Below are positions 7,717 to 62,402 of a stretch of DNA of 64,000 nt, one piece after another. The notes under the pieces are model-generated. The model ran no database searches. It was not told the DNA's origin and saw only the letters and a list, made by a program, of their open reading frames with translations. The translations under genes and the position numbers were made by a program. Each line of letters opens with the position of its first letter. The stretch's first letter is position 1. Source of the DNA: Oscillospiraceae bacterium (GTDB lineage: Bacteria; Bacillota; Clostridia; Oscillospirales; Acutalibacteraceae); assembly GCA_015066565.1 (NCBI GenBank), contig SVOB01000002.1:1-64000 (forward strand), written 5' to 3'.

Positions 7717-8967
7717 ATGAAAGACTACTTGTTGCCCATAATCATTATTCTATCAATAATAGCTATTGCAATCATTGCAATGGTTATTTTGGCTTTTGTA
7801 AAAAGAAGAAAAAAGCCAATGTCAGAAAAGCCAATGACGGCACTGTCGGTTCCAACGACAACGGCTTTGGATGTTAAATTTGAAAAGCTTCCTTCTTTGA
7901 CCAAAGTTGAGGAGTCAAAGCTATCGGTAATCAGCGATAATAAACTGGCAAAACGAATAGTTGATACAATCCCGAACGCAGCTGAAGCAGTTGAAACCAC
8001 TAAAAACGCTGCCAAGGCAGCGAATGTAAGCAAAGATTTATACAGAGTAATAATTCCCAATGGTGCAACTCTTGATAAATCTCGCAAGACAAAGGATGCT
8101 GTCAGAGCAACATATCGTACAGGCGCAAAGATAAAAGGTCAAGCAGATCTTGTCCCCGCAGATGAAACTGTTAAGGAACTTTCAAAGGCTACAGCATTCA
8201 ACTCTGCATATAACATTGCATCGATGGTTGTCGGTCAGCATTATATGGCTGAAATTGATAAACGTCTTGATACCATTAGTGAAGACATTGAAAAGATCCT
8301 AAAATTTCAAGAAAGTGATTATAAAAGCCGTGTACAAGCTTTAATTGCTGAAATTCAGAATATAACAGATTTCCAAGTTGAGATTCTTAATAACATGAAC
8401 AGCAGGATGATCAAACTGAATCATTTGCAGAGTTTGAGAATCAAGTGTACCGAATTGCTTGGACATGCAAACGATATGGTTGAGGCAATATATGAGAAGC
8501 AGCCTTCTAAATATTCCGACTATGAAAAGATTTTGCAGAATGCTGATGCATGGCATTTTTATCAGAATCTCCTGCTTGAATTGCTTTATAAAATAAGTGA
8601 AATTGAATATATTTTGAATCTTGGACAGGTTTCAAAAGAACAGTGCGTTAGCGTTTGCGCTTTCTACTTTGATAGAGTTCAGAATATACAATTAAACTTA
8701 AGAGAATGGCATGAAAGATACGAAGAAAAATTCGCCATTGATACCGAAAACTCAAAACGAAAGAGACTAGGATTTGAAGGTGTGGTATTTAAAATTCCAT
8801 CGCTCATAAATAATGAGCTTGCCTTCAGACCTATTTCGGAAGTCACTGCTGAAATGATTGACGATCAAAGTAGCTTAGCAAGTATTCCAAGTGATGTTAA
8901 TAACCCGTTCAATCAAGATGTTCAACTCATAGTTAAAGACGGCGAAATATATTATTTACCTGAATAA
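7717..8967 (+). CDS. Membrane-anchored coiled-coil protein of unknown function (defence island)
   Basis: I do not recognise the family. Residues 4-27 are an uninterrupted Ile/Leu/Val/Ala-rich membrane segment followed by 'KRRKKP', so the bulk of the 416-residue protein is probably cytoplasmic. Residues 60-150 are Ala/Lys-rich. A central stretch (about 175-230) with 'HYMAEIDKRLDTISEDIEKIL' looks like a coiled coil, and the rest is helical. The gene has a TAGGAG ribosome-binding site and lies 30 bases after the DUF4268 gene and 16 bases before the DUF4238 gene, in one apparent transcription unit. Membrane-anchored partners are common in abortive-infection systems, so pairing with the DUF4238 protein is a reasonable guess. 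Confidence 0.7.
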   Translation: MKDYLLPIIIILSIIAIAIIAMVILAFVKRRKKPMSEKPMTALSVPTTTALDVKFEKLPSLTKVEESKLSVISDNKLAKRIVDTIPNAAEAVETTKNAAKAANVSKDLYRVIIPNGATLDKSRKTKDAVRATYRTGAKIKGQADLVPADETVKELSKATAFNSAYNIASMVVGQHYMAEIDKRLDTISEDIEKILKFQESDYKSRVQALIAEIQNITDFQVEILNNMNSRMIKLNHLQSLRIKCTELLGHANDMVEAIYEKQPSKYSDYEKILQNADAWHFYQNLLLELLYKISEIEYILNLGQVSKEQCVSVCAFYFDRVQNIQLNLREWHERYEEKFAIDTENSKRKRLGFEGVVFKIPSLINNELAFRPISEVTAEMIDDQSSLASIPSDVNNPFNQDVQLIVKDGEIYYLPE

Positions 8968-12871: not shown

Positions 12872-13126
12872 ATGGCAAGTTATACTTATGTTCCGTCAGG
12901 CGTATGCTCGAGAAAGATTTTCTTCGACATTGAGGACGGAAAGCTTTACAATGTTTCCTTTGTAGGCGGTTGTGACGGCAACCTGAAGGCGATTTCAAAG
13001 CTGCTTGAGGGCAAAAGCGCTCAGCAGGCAGTTGAAATTTTAAAGGGCAACGATTGCGCAGGCAGGGGAACCTCGTGTGCAGACCAGCTCGCAAGGGCGG
13101 TTGAACAGGCGCTCGAAGAGGAATAA
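12872..13126 (+). CDS. TSCPD domain protein (TIGR03905 type)
   Basis: The 84-residue protein is one whole TSCPD domain: 'YTYVPSGVCSRKIFFDIEDGKLYNVSF' at the start, 'GGCDGNLKAISKLLEG' in the middle and 'CAGRGTSCADQLARAVEQAL' at the end. Three conserved Cys positions suggest metal or nucleic-acid-related binding. The domain also occurs at the C-terminus of some ribonucleotide reductases. Stand-alone members like this are common in Clostridia and have no assigned function that I know. It is coupled to the upstream hydrolase gene and followed by a terminator whose loop carries a MITE copy. Confidence 0.85.
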   Translation: MASYTYVPSGVCSRKIFFDIEDGKLYNVSFVGGCDGNLKAISKLLEGKSAQQAVEILKGNDCAGRGTSCADQLARAVEQALEEE

Positions 13127-13138
13127 ATTTTCAAACGT

Positions 13139-13451
13139 AAACAGACCTGGTTTAGGGCGACACCGATAAGGAGGTTTAAGCCCTAAAACGGACATTTTTC
13201 CGCTATAACGGCTTCAAAAACGGGGTTAAGGCACAAAGCATTAACCCCGTTTTATTCATTGTTCTAACGAAAAACTGTCTCATTTTAGGGTGCGAAGCAG
13301 TTTTGGCAAAGTAATTTTAGTTCATAAAGTGATTATAAAATCCCCTGCATACTTGCGTATTCAGGGGATTTTTAATTGCTTTAGGGACGAAAGGACAAAG
13401 CCAAAACCTAAACATCCTTATCGGTGTCGCCCTTTTCAGGTCTGTTTTTTT
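13139..13451 (+). terminator. Intrinsic terminator split by an inserted MITE (copy 1)
   Basis: AAACAGACCTG at 13139-13149 is perfectly complementary to CAGGTCTGTTT at 13437-13447, and the 3' arm runs into a T-tract ending at 13451. With the 280-bp element at 13154-13433 removed, this is an ordinary 11-bp terminator hairpin with a loop of about four or five bases, placed just after the TSCPD gene. The element sits in the loop between TTT on each side, which may be a target duplication. Confidence 0.7.
13154..13433 (+). mobile_element. 280-bp MITE-like element, copy 1
   Basis: The element begins AGGGCGACACCGATAAGGAG and ends with the reverse complement of this (25-bp inverted repeats with one mismatch). 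A second copy of identical length lies at 57426-57705 in the same orientation, with seven differences that I can count. The interior contains two strong hairpins followed by T-rich stretches (around 13211-13254 and 13335-13375), so it may itself stop transcription. It holds no convincing protein gene: a short frame shared by both copies accumulates amino-acid changes. Ends, size and lack of coding capacity fit a non-autonomous transposable element; no transposase is in the window. Confidence 0.8.
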
Positions 13452-13452
13452 A

Positions 13453-13632
13453 GCGGACGAGCAATGCTCGCCCCTACGGTATAATATAAATAACAATACA
13501 ATCGTAGGGGACGGCGTCCTCGACGTCCCGCAATAATCAATATATTTTTCGGGCGGGCGTGGAAACCCGCCCCTACATAATCTGGTACTCAATTTAGCAT
13601 ATTGTGTAGGGGAGGGTCTCCGTGCCCTCCCG
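13453..13632. repeat. Cluster of four GTAGGGG hairpin repeats
   Basis: Four units share GTAGGGG followed by a small imperfect hairpin ending in CCCG: minus strand at 13453-13476, plus strand at 13504-13530, minus strand at 13550-13575 and plus strand at 13606-13632. The hairpin arms differ between units (GAGCAATGCTC, GACGGCGTC, GGGCGTGGAAACCC, GAGGGTCTCCGTGCCCTC), but the frame is constant. The units form two head-to-head pairs with AT-rich spacers of about 25-30 bases. This resembles short palindromic repeats spread through genomes of gut Clostridia. The last unit is followed by TTTTT and could act as a terminator. Confidence 0.7.
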
Positions 13633-21680: not shown

Positions 21681-23570
21681 CTATCTTGTCTTTTTAAGAT
21701 AGATTGTTGACATTGGCGGTAAATCGAGCGAAATGCTGTTTTCAAGCCCGTGCATGGGAACCTTTGAGGTTTTTATCTTATCCTTATTTCCCTTGCCCTC
21801 GCCTCCGAACTGTTCGTCGTCGGAGTTGAAAACAACCTTGTAGTTGCCCTTTGAGGGAACGCCTATGCAATAGTTGTTTCTCTCAACGTTTGTGAAGTTA
21901 CAGACGGCAATTACTTCCTTGCCCTTTTCGTCGATTCGTCTGAAAGCGATTACGGAGTTGTCCGTGTCGTCGCTTGAAATCCAGGAAAAGCCTTCCCACG
22001 AATAGTCTATTTCCCAGAAGGACGGATTATGTTTATAAAAATCGTTAAGCTGTTTAACGTATTCCTTTAACTGACGGTGCTTGTCATAGTCAAGAAGAAG
22101 CCAGTCAAGTCCCTTTTCGTAATTCCACTCAATAAACTGACCGAATTCGCTTCCCATAAACAGAAGCTTTTTACCGGGATGAGCGTACATATAACCGAGG
22201 AACGCCCTTACGCCCGCGAACTTTTCTTCGTAGCTTCCGGGCATTTTGTCTATAAGCGATTTCTTGCCGTGAACAACCTCGTCGTGAGAAATCGGAAGCA
22301 CAAAATTCTCGGAAAAAGCGTAGAAGAACGAGAACGTAATGCAGTCGTGGTTGTATTTTCTGAAATAACCGTCAAGCGAGAAATAGCGGAGAATATCGTT
22401 CATCCAGCCCATATTCCACTTGAAGTTGAAGCCGAGACCGCCCATAAATACGGGCTTTGAAACCATCGGCCACGCCGTGCTTTCCTCGGCAACCATCATT
22501 ACGTCGGGGTAGTCTCTGAAAATGTTTTCGTTGAGCTTTCTTAAAAACGCAACCGCTTCAAGATTTTCGTTCGAGCCGTTCTGGTTCGGAACCCACTCGC
22601 CGTCTTTTCTGTCATAGTCAAGATAGAGCATTGAAGCTACGGCGTCAACGCGAAGCCCGTCTACGTGGAACTTGTCAAGCCAGTAAACTGCGCTCGACAT
22701 AAGGAACGACTGGACCTCGTTTCTTCCGAAGTCGAAAACTCTTGTTCCCCACTGCTTATGCTCGCCCTTGCGAACGTCGGCATATTCGTAACAGGGTCTT
22801 CCGTCAAACTCGTAAAGTCCGTTGGCGTCCTTAGGAAAATGCGCAGGAACCCAGTCGAGAATTACGCCTATGCCGTTCTGGTGGAACTTGTCGATAAGGT
22901 ACATTAAATCCTTCGGCTCGCCGTAGCGTGAGGTCGGCGCAAAATAGCCCGTTACCTGATAACCCCAGCTTCCGTCAAACGGATATTCGGAAAGCGGCAT
23001 AAACTCAACGTGAGTATAGCCCATATCCTTGACGTAGGGGACTAACTCGTCGGCGAGCGCCCTGTACGAAAGGAAATTGCCGTCGTCATACTGCTTCCAG
23101 CTTCCCGCGTGAAGCTCGTAAATGCTGACGGGCGAGGAATAAATCTTCTTTGAGGCTCTGTCCTTAAGCCATTTGTCATCGTGCCAGACATAACCGTCAA
23201 GCTCATAGTATTTACTCGCCGTGCCCGGCCTTGTTTCCGTATGGAAGCCGTAGGGGTCGCTTTTCATATTGATAACGCCCTCGGGAGTTTTAATGGCGTA
23301 TTTATATGTGTCAAAGACCTTAATTCCGTTTATTTCGGCTTCCCAGATACCGGAGTCAGTGACCTTGTGCATCGGGTTATCGGTAACGCTCCAGGAATTG
23401 AAGTCGCCTACAACGCTGACCTCAAGCGCATTCGGAGCCCATACTCTGAAAACAACCGAATTATCGCTTTGTCTGTGAGCGCCTAAAAACTCGTATGATT
23501 TAATGTTGTTGCCCTGATGAAAAAGATATGCAGGGACTTCAAGCGGATTATGGTTCTGTTTTACCGCCAT
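21681..23570 (-). CDS. glgB: 1,4-alpha-glucan branching enzyme
   Basis: GH13 enzyme that introduces alpha-1,6 branches into glycogen. The start is placed at ATG 23570 ('[17 protein letters not shown]'), preceded by CGAGGTG, although the frame is open to 23618; this gives 629 residues. There is a CBM48-type N-terminal domain ('[20 protein letters not shown]'). The GH13 core has '[14 protein letters not shown]', '[17 protein letters not shown]' (catalytic Asp), '[12 protein letters not shown]' (catalytic Glu) and '[17 protein letters not shown]'. It is the first gene of the glgB-glgC-glgD-glgA operon. Confidence 0.97.
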
Positions 23571-56076: not shown

Positions 56077-57408
56077 ATGGAAACAACAGAAGAAAAGAAA
56101 GTTGACAACGCTGAAGAAACAACAAAAACTCAGTTTAAAGCCGAAAAGAAAATAAAAAGACGTAAAAGGGCGAAGAAGGCGTTGATTGTAATAGCTGCGG
56201 TTATTCTTGCCGTTACCGTTTTAACGGTGGCTGTCAATACCGTTATCTATAAATCGCTTCTTAATAAGGCTCATTCATTTGAGGCTGTCGGAAGCGAACC
56301 GCTGAATTTTGAGTATTACGAAAACGGCTGCGCAAATATTTATACCGACAAGGGACTTAAAATTGTTCAGCTTACCGACGTTCATATCGGCGCTGGCTGG
56401 ATGTGTCCTAATAAGGATACAATGGCTATGAACGCCGTTGCGGCGATGGTTACGGCTGAGAAGCCCGACCTCGTTATTGTTACGGGCGACGTAGGTTATC
56501 CCGTTCCTTTCCAGGCGGGAACCTTCAATAATAAAACCTCAATTACGGTCTTTGCTGAGCTTATGGAAACGCTTGACGTTTACTGGGCTTACTGCTTCGG
56601 CAATCACGATACGGAAAGCTATTGCCTCTATTCAAGAGAGGACATTGTAAAGCTTCTCGATACCGATAAATATCCTCACTGCCTTTTGCAGGCGGGTCCC
56701 GACGACGTTGACGGAAGCGGAAACCAGATGTTCAATATTGTCAATTCGGACGGCGTAATCACGAGAACTCTTTTTACGGTTGACTCCCACGCTTACGCAA
56801 AGGGTCATATTCCCGCCATCCGCCTTCGTTACGATAACCTTCACGAAAACCAGATTGAATGGTACGAAAAAAAGGTTAAGGAAAACGAAGAGAAGAATAT
56901 GGCGACGATTACCGCTCTTGACCCGAGCAAGCAGAAAAAGTATGAAAGCGAAAAGGTTCCGTCAAGTCTTTTCTTACATATCCCGCTTACTGAGTATAGG
57001 GACGCCTGGGACGAATATCTTGAAAACGGAATGAAGGACACCGAAAACGTAAAATATAATTACGGCGTAATCGGTGAGCCCGAGGACCTTATATGCTGCG
57101 GCGCGAATGAGGACGAAATGTTTGAAACAATGCTCAGACTCGGCAGCACCGATACCGTTTTCTGCGGTCACGACCACCTCAACAATATTTCGTTTAATTA
57201 TAAGGGAATTAACCTCACCTACGGAAAGAGCGTTGATTACCTTGCATATTACGGAATTTACAAGCTTGGTTCACAGCGTGGCTGTACGGTAATCAATGTC
57301 GGTTCGGACGGCTCAATTGATTTCCATCCCGAAAGTTACTATCAGGATAAATACGTTTCCCATTTTGAAAAGGAAACAGTTGAAATGCAAAAACTCGGCA
57401 ATCATTAA
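56077..57408 (+). CDS. Membrane-anchored calcineurin-like metallophosphoesterase
   Basis: The 443-residue protein has a Lys/Arg-rich N-terminus, one membrane helix (about residues 34-57) and an extracellular phosphoesterase domain with the full motif set: 'IVQLTDVHIG', 'VTGDVGYP', 'FGNHDTES', 'LHIPLTEY' and 'FCGHDHLNN'. The two-metal site looks intact. The substrate is unknown. It starts two bases after the CDF gene and is followed by a terminator carrying the second MITE copy. Confidence 0.9.
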   Translation: METTEEKKVDNAEETTKTQFKAEKKIKRRKRAKKALIVIAAVILAVTVLTVAVNTVIYKSLLNKAHSFEAVGSEPLNFEYYENGCANIYTDKGLKIVQLTDVHIGAGWMCPNKDTMAMNAVAAMVTAEKPDLVIVTGDVGYPVPFQAGTFNNKTSITVFAELMETLDVYWAYCFGNHDTESYCLYSREDIVKLLDTDKYPHCLLQAGPDDVDGSGNQMFNIVNSDGVITRTLFTVDSHAYAKGHIPAIRLRYDNLHENQIEWYEKKVKENEEKNMATITALDPSKQKKYESEKVPSSLFLHIPLTEYRDAWDEYLENGMKDTENVKYNYGVIGEPEDLICCGANEDEMFETMLRLGSTDTVFCGHDHLNNISFNYKGINLTYGKSVDYLAYYGIYKLGSQRGCTVINVGSDGSIDFHPESYYQDKYVSHFEKETVEMQKLGNH

Positions 57409-57412
57409 TCAA

Positions 57413-57725
57413 AAGAGGAACGGTTAGGGCGATACCGATAAGGAGGTTTAAGCCCTAAAACGGACACTTTTCCGCTATAACGGCTTCAAAAACGGGGTTA
57501 AGGCACAAAGCATTAACCCCGTTTTATTCATTGTTCTAACGAAAAATTGTCTCATTTTAGGGTGCGAAGCAGTTTTGGCAAAGTAATTTTAGTTCATAAA
57601 GTGATTATAAAATCCCCTGCATACTTTCGTATTCAGGGGATTTTTAATTGCTTTAGGGACAAAAGGACAAAGCCAAAACCTAAACATCATTATCGGTATC
57701 GCCCTTTAGTCCGTTTCTCTTTTTT
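57413..57725 (+). terminator. Intrinsic terminator split by an inserted MITE (copy 2)
   Basis: AAGAGGAACGG at 57413-57423 pairs with CCGTTTCTCTT at 57711-57721 (one G-T pair) and the 3' arm runs into a T-tract. Removing the 280-bp element leaves an 11-bp hairpin with a loop of about five bases, just after the phosphoesterase gene. TT borders the element on both sides. Confidence 0.7.
57426..57705 (+). mobile_element. 280-bp MITE-like element, copy 2
   Basis: The second copy of the element at 13154-13433, same length and orientation, with seven differences that I can count. One of them is matched in both terminal repeats: GACACC...GGTGTC in copy 1 is GATACC...GGTATC here, so base pairing of the ends is kept. 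The flanking stems of the two copies are unrelated in sequence, which fixes the element's boundaries. Confidence 0.8.
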
Positions 57726-57754: not shown

Positions 57755-57836
57755 ATCAATATATAAATAATAAAAAATCAATATATAAATGAGAATTTCA
57801 GCACCTTCCCCACTTTTTTCTCAGGGAGGAATACTT

Positions 57837-60800
57837 ATGAAAAAAAGATTATCCATTATTTTGTCATTGACTCTGGTGCTTGCTGCATTGGTTCTGACTG
57901 TTGTTCAGACTTCTGCTGCCGGAACGGTTCAGACAAGCCCTGACGGTCTGTGGAAGTATTCTGTCAATGATGACGGTATAACGGCAACAATCGGTACCGG
58001 AAGTTATGCGCAAAAGGCATATCTCGGCACTGCCGAGAATGTTACTGTTCCTTCAAGTATTAACGGCTATACCGTAACAGGCATCGGCAGACATACATTT
58101 TTTAAACTCACTTCGCTGAAAAGCGTAACATTTCCTTCAAGCGTTACAGATATGGAAGGCAACGTGTTCTACGGCTGTACTGCACTTGAAAGCGTAACAC
58201 TCTCCGACAATACTGCAAGCATAGCCGATTATTTATTTGACGGCTGCTCTTCGCTTGAAAGCGTAACAATTCCCTCAAGCGTTGCAAGTATAGGCTATAA
58301 ATCGTTTTATAACTGTTCTTCGCTTGAAAGCATAACAATTCCCTCGAGCGTTACAAGTATAGGCAATTTTGCATTTCAGAACTGTACCGCTCTTTCAAAC
58401 GTAACAATTTCCTCGGGCGTTTCAAGTATAGGCAGTTATGCATTTCAAAATTGTACCGCTCTTTTAAGCGTAACAATTCCCTCAAGTGTTACAAGTATGG
58501 GGAATACCGTGTTTGATGGATGCATCAATCTTTCAAGCGTAACAATACAAAACGGTATTACGAGCATAGGCGATTCGGTCTTTAAAGGATGCTCCTCACT
58601 TGAAAGCATAGTAATTCCGTCGAGCGTTACGAGTATAGACAGATATGCGTTTCAGAATTGTACCGCTCTTTCAAGCGTAACAATTCCGTCGAGCGTTACA
58701 AGTTTCGGAGTCAGCATTTTTGACGGTTGTTCGGCGATTACAGAGTGCATTGTTAATTATAATCCTTCCTGCGATTACAGTAATATCAAAACAATTATTA
58801 CCGATGTTATTATACCTGACGGCGTTACAAGCATTGGTGACAGTGCGTTCAGGAATTGTACCACTCTTACCGGCATAACAATTCCTTCGAGTGTTACGAG
58901 TATAGGCGGTTATGCATTTTACAATTGCAACAGACTTACAAGCGTAACAATCCCGTCGGGCGTTACAAGTATAGGCGGTTATGCTTTTTCAGGATGTAGC
59001 GGCATCTCAAGCGTAACAATTCCCTCGAGCGTTTCAAGCATAGGAACCTCTGCTTTTTATAATTGTTCAGCACTTACCGAGTGCATTGTAAATTATAACC
59101 CTGCCTGCGATTACAGTAATATCAAAACAATTATTACCGATGTTATTATCCCTGTCGGTGTTACAAGTTTAAGCGACAATGCATTTAACGGTTGCAGCGG
59201 TCTTACAAGCATAACGATTCCGGACAGCGTAACAGCTATAGGTAATAATGCATTCAAAAATTGCACCGGTCTTACAGGTATAACGATACCCAACAGTGTC
59301 ACATCGTTAGGCGCGTCTGCGTTTGACGGTTGCTCCAATCTTTCAAATGTGACTCTTTCGGAAAATATTACGGGTATCGGCAACTACACATTCAGAGGTT
59401 GCACTTCGCTTCAAAGCTTAACAATTCCGGCAGGCGTTACAAGTATAGGCAGCGGAGCATTTTACAATTGTACAGGACTTGCAAGTGTTGTAATTCCCGA
59501 AGGGGTAACAGCTTTGAACAATTCAACGTTCTATAACTGTACATCGCTTCAGAGTTTAACAATTCCCGGAAATGTTGCAAGCATAGGCACCGATGTGTTT
59601 TACGGTTGCTCAGCGCTGAACAGCTGCATTGTTTACTATAACCCTTCCTGCAGTTACAGTAACATCAAAACATTTATTACCGATGTTATTGTTCCTGACG
59701 GTGTTACAACTATAAGCGATAATGCATTTAGCAGCTACTACTCGATTAAGAATGTAACAATTGCCGGCAGCGTTACAAGCATTGGCAGTCAAGCTTTTTC
59801 CAATTGTACCGGACTTACAGATTTAACAATTTCGGACGGTGCCACAAGCATAGGCAGTCAGTCCTTTGCCTATTGCAGCGCTCTTACAAGCTTAACAATA
59901 CCGGCAAGCATTTCAAGTATAAACCTCGATTCATTTTCCGGTTGCTCAGCGTTGAACAGCTGCATTGTTTACTATAACCCTTCCTGCAGTTATTCAGCAC
60001 TCAGCCCTTATATAACAGACGTTATTATTCCGGACGGAGTTACAAGTATAAATCAGCAGGCATTCAGTTACTGTTACAAACTTACAGGCATAACAATTCC
60101 CTCAAGCGTTACAAGTATAGGTGCCAGTGCTTTCGTACAATGCACAGCGCTTCAGAGCATAGTTATTCCTAACGGCATAGCGGAAATAAAAAGCGGTATT
60201 TTTTCCGGTTGCACTTCACTCCGGAGCGTAACTATACCTGACAGCGTTACAAGCATCGGCAGTTCTGCATTCAACAACTGCTCCAGCCTTTCAAATGTAA
60301 CAATTCCGGACGGTGTTACAAGTATAGGCGATTATGCATTCAGTAATTGCAGTTTGATTGAAAGCGTAACACTTTCCGACAGCATTACAAGCGTAGGTTA
60401 TCGGTCGTTTAACGGATGCACTTCGCTTACCGAGTGTATTGTGGATTATAACCCGCAATGTACCAATTATTCAAACATCAGTTCGGTAGTTACAGAGATA
60501 AATCTGCCCAATGGTATTACAAGTATAGCAAACGATCAGTTTTACTATTTCAGCGCGCTTAAAAGCATAACGATTCCCGACTCTGTTACGGGCATAGGCA
60601 ATAATGCTTTTGCCGGTTGTTCCTCACTTGAAAGTATAGTAATTCCCGAAGGAGTTACAAGTATAGGATATAACGCATTTACCAATTGTTCTTCACTTGA
60701 AAGTATAACAATACCCGGTAGTGTGGTAAGTATTGGCACTCAGCCGTTTTATAACTGTCCGTCAATCAATGAGTGTATCCTTACCTATAATCCGCTTTGC

Positions 60801-62402
60801 AATTATTCGGGAATAAACACTTATATTACCGAAGTTACTGTCCCTGACGGTGTTACAAGCATAAGTGACGAAGCATTTTACGGCTGCAGTAATCTTGAAA
60901 GCGTAACAATTCCTGACTCGGTAACAAGTATAGGCGACTGGGCATTTTTCAATTGTCAAAGCCTTGAAAACTTTACAATTCCCGATGGTGTTACAAGTAT
61001 CGGGGCCGCAGCATTCAGATACTGCACAGGTTTTACAAGCATCGTAATTCCTGATGGCGTTACGAGCATAGAAGATGAAACTTTTTACAATTGTTACGGT
61101 CTTACAAGCATAGTTATTCCGGACGGCATTACGAGTATAGGTGAATATGCATTCTATGATTGCTCCTCGCTTGAGGGCATAACAATTCCCGATGGCGTTA
61201 CGAGCATAGGCGCTTCTGCATTTTCCGGCTGTTCCTCACTTCAGAGCATAACAATTCCGGACGGTGTAACGGCTATTAACAGCGCCGCTTTTAACGGTTG
61301 CTGCAATCTTTTGAGTATAAATGTTCCCGACAACGTTACAAGCATAGGTAATAATGCATTTTACGGCTGTTCCGGTCTTTCGAGTCTGACAATCCCAAAC
61401 GGTGTTACGGAAATAGGCAATTATGCATTTTACGGCTGTTCATCACTTCAGAGCATAGTAATTCCCGACAGTGTTACAAGCATAGGCAATAATACATTTG
61501 ATTACTGTAACTCGCTTACGGAATGTTATTGTCACAAAGGAAGTGCTATGGACCGCTATATAAGAACACACGGTCTTACAGTTTCAAGGCAGTATTTCGG
61601 CGATATAAATTCCGACGGTGAAGTTGATATAGACGATATCGGTTTCATTATGAGTACATCTGTCGGTTTGATTGACAGTATGACCGAGTTACAGGGAATT
61701 GTTGCCGATTATAACCTTGACGGTGTAATTGACGCATTTGACGCGGCGGCGATTGACAGATATTTTGGTACCGAAAGCTTCAAAAACTATCTTCATACGG
61801 ACGGTTTTGAAGACTATTCCGCAGGTACAACCATTTCTTCAGGCTCAACACCGTATTATGTTAAGTATGATGGTACCGGAAACGGCAATCAGGTAATTGT
61901 TGCGGATGGCACTTACGGAAATGTTCTTCAGGCACAGGGCGCTTCGGGCTGGGCGTCGGATATCAGATATAATTTCACGGCTGATGACAAACAGTACCTG
62001 GTGCTCGAACTTGATGTTAAACCCGTATCGGGTTCAGACCCCGGCGGAATTAACTTCGGTTCCTCGGGCGCAAGCGGAGCCTGGACAAATTCCGTATGCA
62101 GATTCGGACTTTGCGCTAACGGTGAATTCTATTGTGGTAAAAATGACTCGGCAACGGTCATCAATACAAGCATGACGCATTCAAACGGAAACTGGTATCA
62201 CTTGAAGATGGCATTAGACAGAACCAACAATGTTTACTATACATTTGTTGACGGTGTTCTGCTTGATTCCAACGGCTTTACTGCTGACCCCGCAACGCCA
62301 GAGTGGTTCAGTCTGGGCGCAGGCAATAACGGAACGAATACCGTTTACTACGATAATATCCAGCTGTATTCTTCGGACAACAGCACTTGCATTACACGGT
62401 AA
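57837..62402 (+). CDS. BspA-type leucine-rich-repeat surface protein with dockerin
   Basis: Secreted protein of 1521 residues. A signal peptide (about 1-27) is followed by a very long array of BspA/LRR_5 repeats of about 23 residues ('SVTIPSSVTSIGNFAFQNCT') to about residue 1230. A type I dockerin follows, with two calcium loops 'DINSDGEVDIDD' and 'DYNLDGVIDAFD'. The C-terminal domain of about 200 residues ('DGFEDYSAGTTISSG', 'WYHLKMALDRTNNVYYTFVD') looks like a concanavalin-like carbohydrate-binding domain. The dockerin implies attachment to a cohesin-bearing scaffold, and the repeats suggest adhesion. Start ATG 57837 has GGGAGG. A periodic spacer 'TECIVNYNPSCDYSNIKTI' recurs several times in the array. 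Confidence 0.93.
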   Translation: MKKRLSIILSLTLVLAALVLTVVQTSAAGTVQTSPDGLWKYSVNDDGITATIGTGSYAQKAYLGTAENVTVPSSINGYTVTGIGRHTFFKLTSLKSVTFPSSVTDMEGNVFYGCTALESVTLSDNTASIADYLFDGCSSLESVTIPSSVASIGYKSFYNCSSLESITIPSSVTSIGNFAFQNCTALSNVTISSGVSSIGSYAFQNCTALLSVTIPSSVTSMGNTVFDGCINLSSVTIQNGITSIGDSVFKGCSSLESIVIPSSVTSIDRYAFQNCTALSSVTIPSSVTSFGVSIFDGCSAITECIVNYNPSCDYSNIKTIITDVIIPDGVTSIGDSAFRNCTTLTGITIPSSVTSIGGYAFYNCNRLTSVTIPSGVTSIGGYAFSGCSGISSVTIPSSVSSIGTSAFYNCSALTECIVNYNPACDYSNIKTIITDVIIPVGVTSLSDNAFNGCSGLTSITIPDSVTAIGNNAFKNCTGLTGITIPNSVTSLGASAFDGCSNLSNVTLSENITGIGNYTFRGCTSLQSLTIPAGVTSIGSGAFYNCTGLASVVIPEGVTALNNSTFYNCTSLQSLTIPGNVASIGTDVFYGCSALNSCIVYYNPSCSYSNIKTFITDVIVPDGVTTISDNAFSSYYSIKNVTIAGSVTSIGSQAFSNCTGLTDLTISDGATSIGSQSFAYCSALTSLTIPASISSINLDSFSGCSALNSCIVYYNPSCSYSALSPYITDVIIPDGVTSINQQAFSYCYKLTGITIPSSVTSIGASAFVQCTALQSIVIPNGIAEIKSGIFSGCTSLRSVTIPDSVTSIGSSAFNNCSSLSNVTIPDGVTSIGDYAFSNCSLIESVTLSDSITSVGYRSFNGCTSLTECIVDYNPQCTNYSNISSVVTEINLPNGITSIANDQFYYFSALKSITIPDSVTGIGNNAFAGCSSLESIVIPEGVTSIGYNAFTNCSSLESITIPGSVVSIGTQPFYNCPSINECILTYNPLCNYSGINTYITEVTVPDGVTSISDEAFYGCSNLESVTIPDSVTSIGDWAFFNCQSLENFTIPDGVTSIGAAAFRYCTGFTSIVIPDGVTSIEDETFYNCYGLTSIVIPDGITSIGEYAFYDCSSLEGITIPDGVTSIGASAFSGCSSLQSITIPDGVTAINSAAFNGCCNLLSINVPDNVTSIGNNAFYGCSGLSSLTIPNGVTEIGNYAFYGCSSLQSIVIPDSVTSIGNNTFDYCNSLTECYCHKGSAMDRYIRTHGLTVSRQYFGDINSDGEVDIDDIGFIMSTSVGLIDSMTELQGIVADYNLDGVIDAFDAAAIDRYFGTESFKNYLHTDGFEDYSAGTTISSGSTPYYVKYDGTGNGNQVIVADGTYGNVLQAQGASGWASDIRYNFTADDKQYLVLELDVKPVSGSDPGGINFGSSGASGAWTNSVCRFGLCANGEFYCGKNDSATVINTSMTHSNGNWYHLKMALDRTNNVYYTFVDGVLLDSNGFTADPATPEWFSLGAGNNGTNTVYYDNIQLYSSDNSTCITR

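Follow-up and report, generated by a model that had tools for sequence, protein, structure and literature searches.

Does the 280-bp element that interrupts the terminator of a TSCPD-domain protein gene choose terminator hairpins as places to insert, and what kind of enzyme might move it? The window, that is, the whole stretch of 64,000 nucleotides that was analysed, contains two copies of this element (13154-13433 and 57426-57705), which are 98% identical. The features of the copy-1 locus and the second copy are as follows.

12872..13126, + strand: gene for a TSCPD-domain protein upstream of copy 1, whose terminator is interrupted (84-aa ORF; Pfam PF12637, E 1.7e-25)
13139..13149, + strand: left arm of the target hairpin, AAACAGACCTG
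13152..13153, + strand: left TT core, or copy of a 2-bp duplication
13154..13433, + strand: family A element, copy 1, 280 bp
13154..13178, + strand: left terminal inverted repeat of copy 1, 25 nt
13409..13433, - strand: right terminal inverted repeat of copy 1, 25 nt
13434..13435, + strand: right TT core, or copy of a 2-bp duplication
13437..13451, + strand: right arm of the target hairpin, CAGGTCTGTTT, with T-tract (arm 13437-13447, T-tract to 13451)
57426..57705, + strand: family A element, copy 2, 280 bp, TT on each side, in the hairpin AAAGAGgAACGG / CCGTTtCTCTTT

The first-pass annotation had described the element as lying within self-complementary flanks followed by a T-tract, directly after a gene, and this arrangement was confirmed at 13139-13451. 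As found, the junctions read AAACAGACCTG GTTT, then the element, then TTT CAGGTCTGTTTTTTT, where GTTT occupies 13150-13153 and TTT occupies 13434-13436. When copy 1 was excised together with one TT, the site became AAACAGACCTG-GTTTT-CAGGTCTGTTTTTTT, which has the form of an intrinsic terminator. The earlier claim that removal of the element leaves a clean terminator holds for the hairpin, with the correction that dropping the 2-bp duplication makes the loop GTTTT. Copy 2, as had also been noted, lies in a hairpin with a different stem; a 443-aa ORF (56077-57408) precedes it and a large leucine-rich-repeat-like ORF follows. At 57789-62402 the window carries a repetitive 1537-aa ORF, which begins 83 bases past copy 2 and consists of 69-nt (23-aa) units that look leucine-rich-repeat-like by eye. 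Just downstream of copy 1, REP-like GTAGGGG/CCCCTAC palindromic units are clustered at 13471-13632, and such units are also present at 23034 and 23250.

Copy 1 begins and ends as AGGGCGACACCG...CGGTGTCGCCCT, its 25-nt arms being 96% complementary, and four occurrences of the repeat's first 19 bases, with up to 3 mismatches, were counted in the window, where 0.01 would be expected by chance. The genome-wide search proposed at first pass was run on the genome of the window (G000; 1.96 Mb in three contigs) and gave 10 full copies with discrete ends, which belong to family A, are 96-100% identical to copy 1, and had their flanks tested for hairpins. Five further copies, of 277-278 bp, have ends that differ from those of family A (AGGGCGTGCRGATT..) and were assigned to family B, giving 15 full copies in total. 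The same genome also holds mini-elements, namely L016 and L025, which are 31 bp long, identical, and located in two different hairpins, and L053 (29 bp). Being short (280 bp, below the 600 bp of MITEs), multicopy (10 copies), non-coding, and bounded by 25-nt terminal inverted repeats, the family A element has the characteristics of a MITE; the sole listed ORF of at least 80 aa that overlaps copy 1 is a 91-aa one running out of the element. The 22 end matches in G000 with at most one mismatch all lie inside full or mini copies, and no autonomous partner sharing these ends was seen among them. In relatives, many end matches lie at contig ends, and part of them were examined for a partner.

Hairpin targeting was evaluated with 30 insertions, collected in eight genomes, that retain both flanks: 10 family A and five family B copies in G000, five mini-elements (three in G000 and one each in G030 and G034), and 10 copies in relatives, with relatives' copies at contig ends that had a single flank excluded. 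Apart from the ten full family A copies, the insertions (20 of the 30) have boundaries that follow end strings picked by the analyst, and 29 of the insertions are regarded as independent, because by eye L012 and L115 seem to share a single insertion event. The number of enclosing pairs did not discriminate between true and mispaired flanks (at least 5 pairs in 26 of 30 and 687 of 870, respectively); A-rich and T-rich flanks inflate weak pairings, and this count was judged uninformative because A/T tracts pair with anything. An energy-plus-loop test was used instead, with thresholds chosen after the results of the pair count were seen. In its loose version, the joined flanks pass when the loop that holds the junction is no longer than 13 nt, the fold reaches -9 kcal/mol or lower, and the junction is enclosed by 7 or more pairs; the strict version requires -12 kcal/mol.

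Twenty-one of the 30 insertions (70%) passed the loose test and 17 (57%) the strict one, against 11.5-21.2% and 5.7-9.9%, respectively, over all controls. The controls were mispaired flanks (153 of 870 loose, 50 of 870 strict), window positions outside ORFs of at least 100 aa (493 of 4286, or 11.5%, and 341 of 4286, or 8.0%), and random window positions (1061 and 493 of 5000). A perfect stem was found in 14 of the 30, compared with 36 of 870 mispaired flanks and 194 of 4414 positions outside long ORFs. Furthermore, the mean duplex energy between left and right flanks over the 30 was -14.2 kcal/mol, compared with -8.3 kcal/mol (sd 0.6) for re-paired flanks, and none of 20000 permutations was as good.

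Among the full family A copies in G000, 7 of 10 passed the loose and 6 of 10 the strict test, which supports the proposal of the first-pass annotation that the element targets the loops of terminator hairpins. A majority of copies outside hairpins, which had been named at first pass as refuting this proposal, was not observed. The corresponding numbers were 5 and 4 of 5 for family B, 4 and 3 of 5 for the mini-elements, and 5 and 4 of 10 for the copies in relatives, and in the passing copies both hairpin arms remain around the element. Nine insertions failed the loose test. L002, L003, and L120 have no convincing hairpin; L004, which with L002 and L003 makes up the three failing full copies of G000, sits in the T-tract just past an intact hairpin; the stems of L053, L064, L070, and L065 are weaker or wider by eye; and L115, by eye the counterpart of L012 in G027, has a decayed stem.

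The stems of different insertion sites differ in sequence, and the hairpin targeting is independent of target sequence. Empty sites were searched for 13 of the 15 joined sites (L003 and L013 were left out), and nine sites were aligned with 19 of the 20 retrieved stretches. Only three alignments spanned both the junction and the gene flank (L001, which is copy 1, L002, and L007), all of them in the sister species G027. At the copy-1 site of G027, ACGGACC-cGATAGCTTTATCa-GGTCCGTTTTTT follows the same gene, so that the hairpin is uninterrupted and the element absent, with an A-T pair of the stem changed to G-C in a compensating manner. The L007 site of G027 likewise shows an uninterrupted CTCTGCAC..GTGCAGAG hairpin and no element, and its L002 site has neither. 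Of the other alignments, that of L199 is a short spanning one and the rest are one-sided or cover the hairpin alone; L199, from G023, is the probable counterpart of copy 1 and reads AAACAGACCTG-ATTT-CAGGTCTGTTTTTT. A 32-base match to the joined copy-1 site (TAAACAGACCTGGTTTTCAGGTCTGTTTTTTT) is also uninterrupted in the relative G029 (L196). Because empty hairpins were found at orthologous sites, we assign the stem, for the sites compared, to the site and not to the element. Movement of the stem with the element, which had been named at first pass as evidence against targeting, was not seen, as stems vary by site and two of the three junction-spanning comparisons with G027 gave an empty hairpin.

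The TT core with its orientation, the second family, the mini-elements, and the covariation described below are additions to the first-pass annotation. Identical TT (or AA) is present on both sides of 23 of the 30 insertions (permutation mean 12.4, maximum 20, none of 20000 as high) and missing from 7; these 23 show a short target duplication of the MITE type, in which a duplication and a part of the element are indistinguishable. Since the match extends to three bases in only 8 of the 30, the usual core length is 2 bp. Among the core-bearing copies, the orientation relative to the TT strand is one way in 13 of 13 family A copies and opposite in 6 of 6 family B copies, the latter including the two that by eye represent one shared insertion (L012 and L115). 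A 2-bp core with fixed orientation, which is a trait of the serine-recombinase type, is accordingly found in 19 of the 25 long copies. Such an orientation suggests either that recombination takes place at a 2-bp core that matches, or that a single strand is transferred after TT. Symmetric cut-and-paste with a 2-bp duplication is disfavoured, because both orientations would be expected from it.

Copy 1 together with its target stem (13136-13455) had a predicted fold of -148.9 kcal/mol (z -16.7), in which the terminator stem, the inverted repeats, and two long arms are all paired, and the element is self-complementary over nearly its whole length. The earlier suggestion that termination may be kept is consistent with this folding prediction, since the terminator stem is paired in the predicted RNA. 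Covariation was examined in an alignment of 15 of the 25 long copies from both families, the structure being predicted from the same alignment. Two-sided compensatory changes were observed in 30 of 66 predicted pairs, and the covariation score was 0.378, compared with 0.141 for shuffled alignments (none of 500 as high) and at most 0.129 for slid ones; one of the five measures, further pair types, was unexceptional (29 of 500 shuffles as high). The element ends differ in sequence between species with their pairing maintained. For 40 pairs predicted on both strands, GU was found in 14 cells and AC in 11, and because these frequencies are similar, it is a palindrome in the DNA that seems to be selected, and not a single RNA strand; the conserved fold thus looks like DNA. 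A strand-specific non-coding RNA is disfavoured by the same balance and by the Rfam search, where the element's hits were far below the gathering scores and none reached them.

DNA similarity to copy 1 was detected in 7 of 59 genomes searched including G000, all of the same genus, with a short match in G004. Diverged copies are present in same-genus relatives, together with two mini-elements of 32 bp. The end pattern matched 16 of 39 genus genomes, some matches lying by eye in unrelated sequence, and 4 of 394 genomes across the order including G000; the other three had one match each, two of which (L111 and L112) appear by eye to be coding sequence, the third being L113. The pattern was absent from the viral contigs searched. 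In a further contig search for the end sequence, 18 stretches were obtained, three of them from G027, and of the other 15, seven were inspected and five were apparently coding by eye. The remaining two (L261 52-70 and L255 3929-3947) come from uncultured Clostridiales MAGs, each with one exact occurrence of the 19-base end, located near similar hairpins; no partner end was found within either retrieved stretch. Separately, elements with very different end repeats in other genomes of the genus share the internal hairpin core (L119 1441-1731; L124, L127, L132, and L134), and the ends of the last four resemble a tRNA T-arm plus acceptor by eye. In L129 (G007:C30), the core appears three times, about every 348 bp (near 7821, 8169, and 8518), and two tRNA genes are predicted at the same locus.

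We consider it quite probable that the element is a non-autonomous, MITE-like one of a single uncultured (rumen-type) Clostridia genus, which inserts at TT/AA and mostly in terminator-type hairpin loops regardless of stem sequence. A mobilising enzyme was not found in searches for IS1182-, IS110-, rve-, and Y1-type proteins, from which IS4/IS5, IS256, ISL3, IS66, and IS630 were left out. The IS1182-type DDE domain (PF13751) had no match in G000 and one among the 39 genus genomes; the IS110/IS1111 DEDD transposase (PF02371) was found in 5 of the 39 and had none in G000 or G027; rve transposases (PF00665) were absent from G000, G027, G034, and G023; and Y1 (PF01797) had no match in the carriers G027, G023, and G004, whose assemblies are 90, 95, and 75% complete. 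Mobilisers of the Y1/IS200, IS1182, IS110, and rve types are weakened or rejected by their absence from carrier genomes within the 39 of the genus. Serine recombinases (PF00239) occur in 33 of the 39, with one large match in G000, and a nearly identical gene (94-95% DNA identity) is present in G027 and G030.

L240 5444-7072: large serine recombinase gene, G000
L241 3430-5058: large serine recombinase gene, G027
L242 4633-6261: large serine recombinase gene, G030

Because these genes lie in three different settings, the G000 recombinase probably belongs to another mobile element; it resembles the integrase of such an element, and nothing ties the gene to the ends studied here. With neither an enzyme nor an autonomous partner found, we infer the "recombinase-like" character of the mobility rather than observe it.

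Integron integrases read attC by shape rather than by sequence. Our analysis allows a tentative and rather speculative reading, that of structure-to-structure mobility, in which some recombinase would join the folded end-TT-end junction to any chromosomal TT-loop hairpin, likewise reading the shape of both. In the MITE-like explanation favoured above, mobility would be catalysed in trans by an enzyme that recognises the structure of the target hairpin and probably also that of the element, and strand exchange would take place at the 2-bp core in a recombinase- or single-strand-transposase-like manner rather than through orientation-blind target duplication. The arms of the inserted element would stack on the target stem, and the hairpin with its T-tract, and probably termination, would survive. 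Insertion into a terminator loop would probably be cheap for the host, and loop targeting may in this way spare genes.

An ordinary DDE-derived MITE is a possible, though still doubtful, alternative. It would make a 2-3-bp AT-rich duplication through an IS1182-like or IS30-like transposase with a preference for palindromes or cruciforms, with the orientation arising from slightly different ends. The 25-nt terminal inverted repeats and the short direct duplication fit this explanation, and so does the precedent of the IS1182 family, where the IS1272/TnSha1 transposase is described, in the excerpts of PMC4923244 and PMC5678879, as choosing hairpins, often terminators, whatever their sequence. 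However, PF13751 and PF00665 are missing from the genomes named above, and an orientation fixed to TT is unexpected of a symmetric complex. An unlikely explanation is a single-strand transposase (HUH/Y1, IS200/IS605- or RAYT-like) that cuts after TT in a single-stranded loop, which would account for the fixed orientation, the structured ends, and the lack of a true duplication. G000 does carry one divergent Y1/RAYT-like gene (L162 1456-2031), but this gene has by eye its own GTAGGGG REP-like units inside, a different kind of repeat, and the carriers G027, G023, and G004 lack a Y1 match. Untargeted insertion, with selection having purged other sites to leave mostly harmless terminator positions, is very improbable: the copies with inspected flanks do lie outside recognisable genes, where terminators would be common, but positions outside long ORFs pass the loop test far less often than the insertions (8.0 against 57% strict, 11.5 against 70% loose), and a base-exact position at TT with fixed orientation is not explained.

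Group IIC introns, which are ribozymes, use terminator hairpins as landmarks for insertion and enter next to the stem. The terminator-hairpin landmark is common to them and to the 280-bp element, whereas the latter inserts into the loop and has no Rfam match at gathering level. The closest precedent is IS1272/TnSha1 of staphylococci, which shares sequence-independent hairpin targets, many of them terminators. According to the excerpts of PMC4923244 and PMC5678879, new IS1272 insertions hit inverted repeats, TnSha1 targets hairpins without primary-sequence preference, most of the sequenced ones being confirmed terminators, and in both the hairpin is partly or wholly deleted with no duplication. 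In contrast to what these excerpts describe, the 280-bp element keeps the stem, uses the loop, and is flanked by TT, and G000 lacks an IS1182 DDE match. Insertion into extragenic palindromes is also common to IS1397, ISKpn1, ISPpu10, and others, which in the excerpt of PMC1525189 target REP palindromes, a defined repeat family, whereas the stems in this study share no sequence. As with the MITEs outlined in the excerpt of PMC10969869, the element is short, non-coding, multicopy, and intergenic with terminal inverted repeats; it differs in that no parent IS was found, the whole element is structured and covarying, and a terminator-loop target is not among the traits described in that excerpt. 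Within the titles and abstract openings of a limited literature collection, no element was described that sits in a terminator loop and leaves the stem in place.

To settle with the hairpin left intact is gentle on the genome, and unusual for a mobile element. The insertion rule is blind to stem sequence, yet exact to the base. If structure-to-structure mobility is true, the ends would be free to diverge as long as left and right pair, and a bare 31-bp hairpin could move. The finding would show that the terminator loop, a very common structured site in bacteria, is usable as a landing place with the hairpin kept, and it makes testable how an enzyme picks its target by shape.
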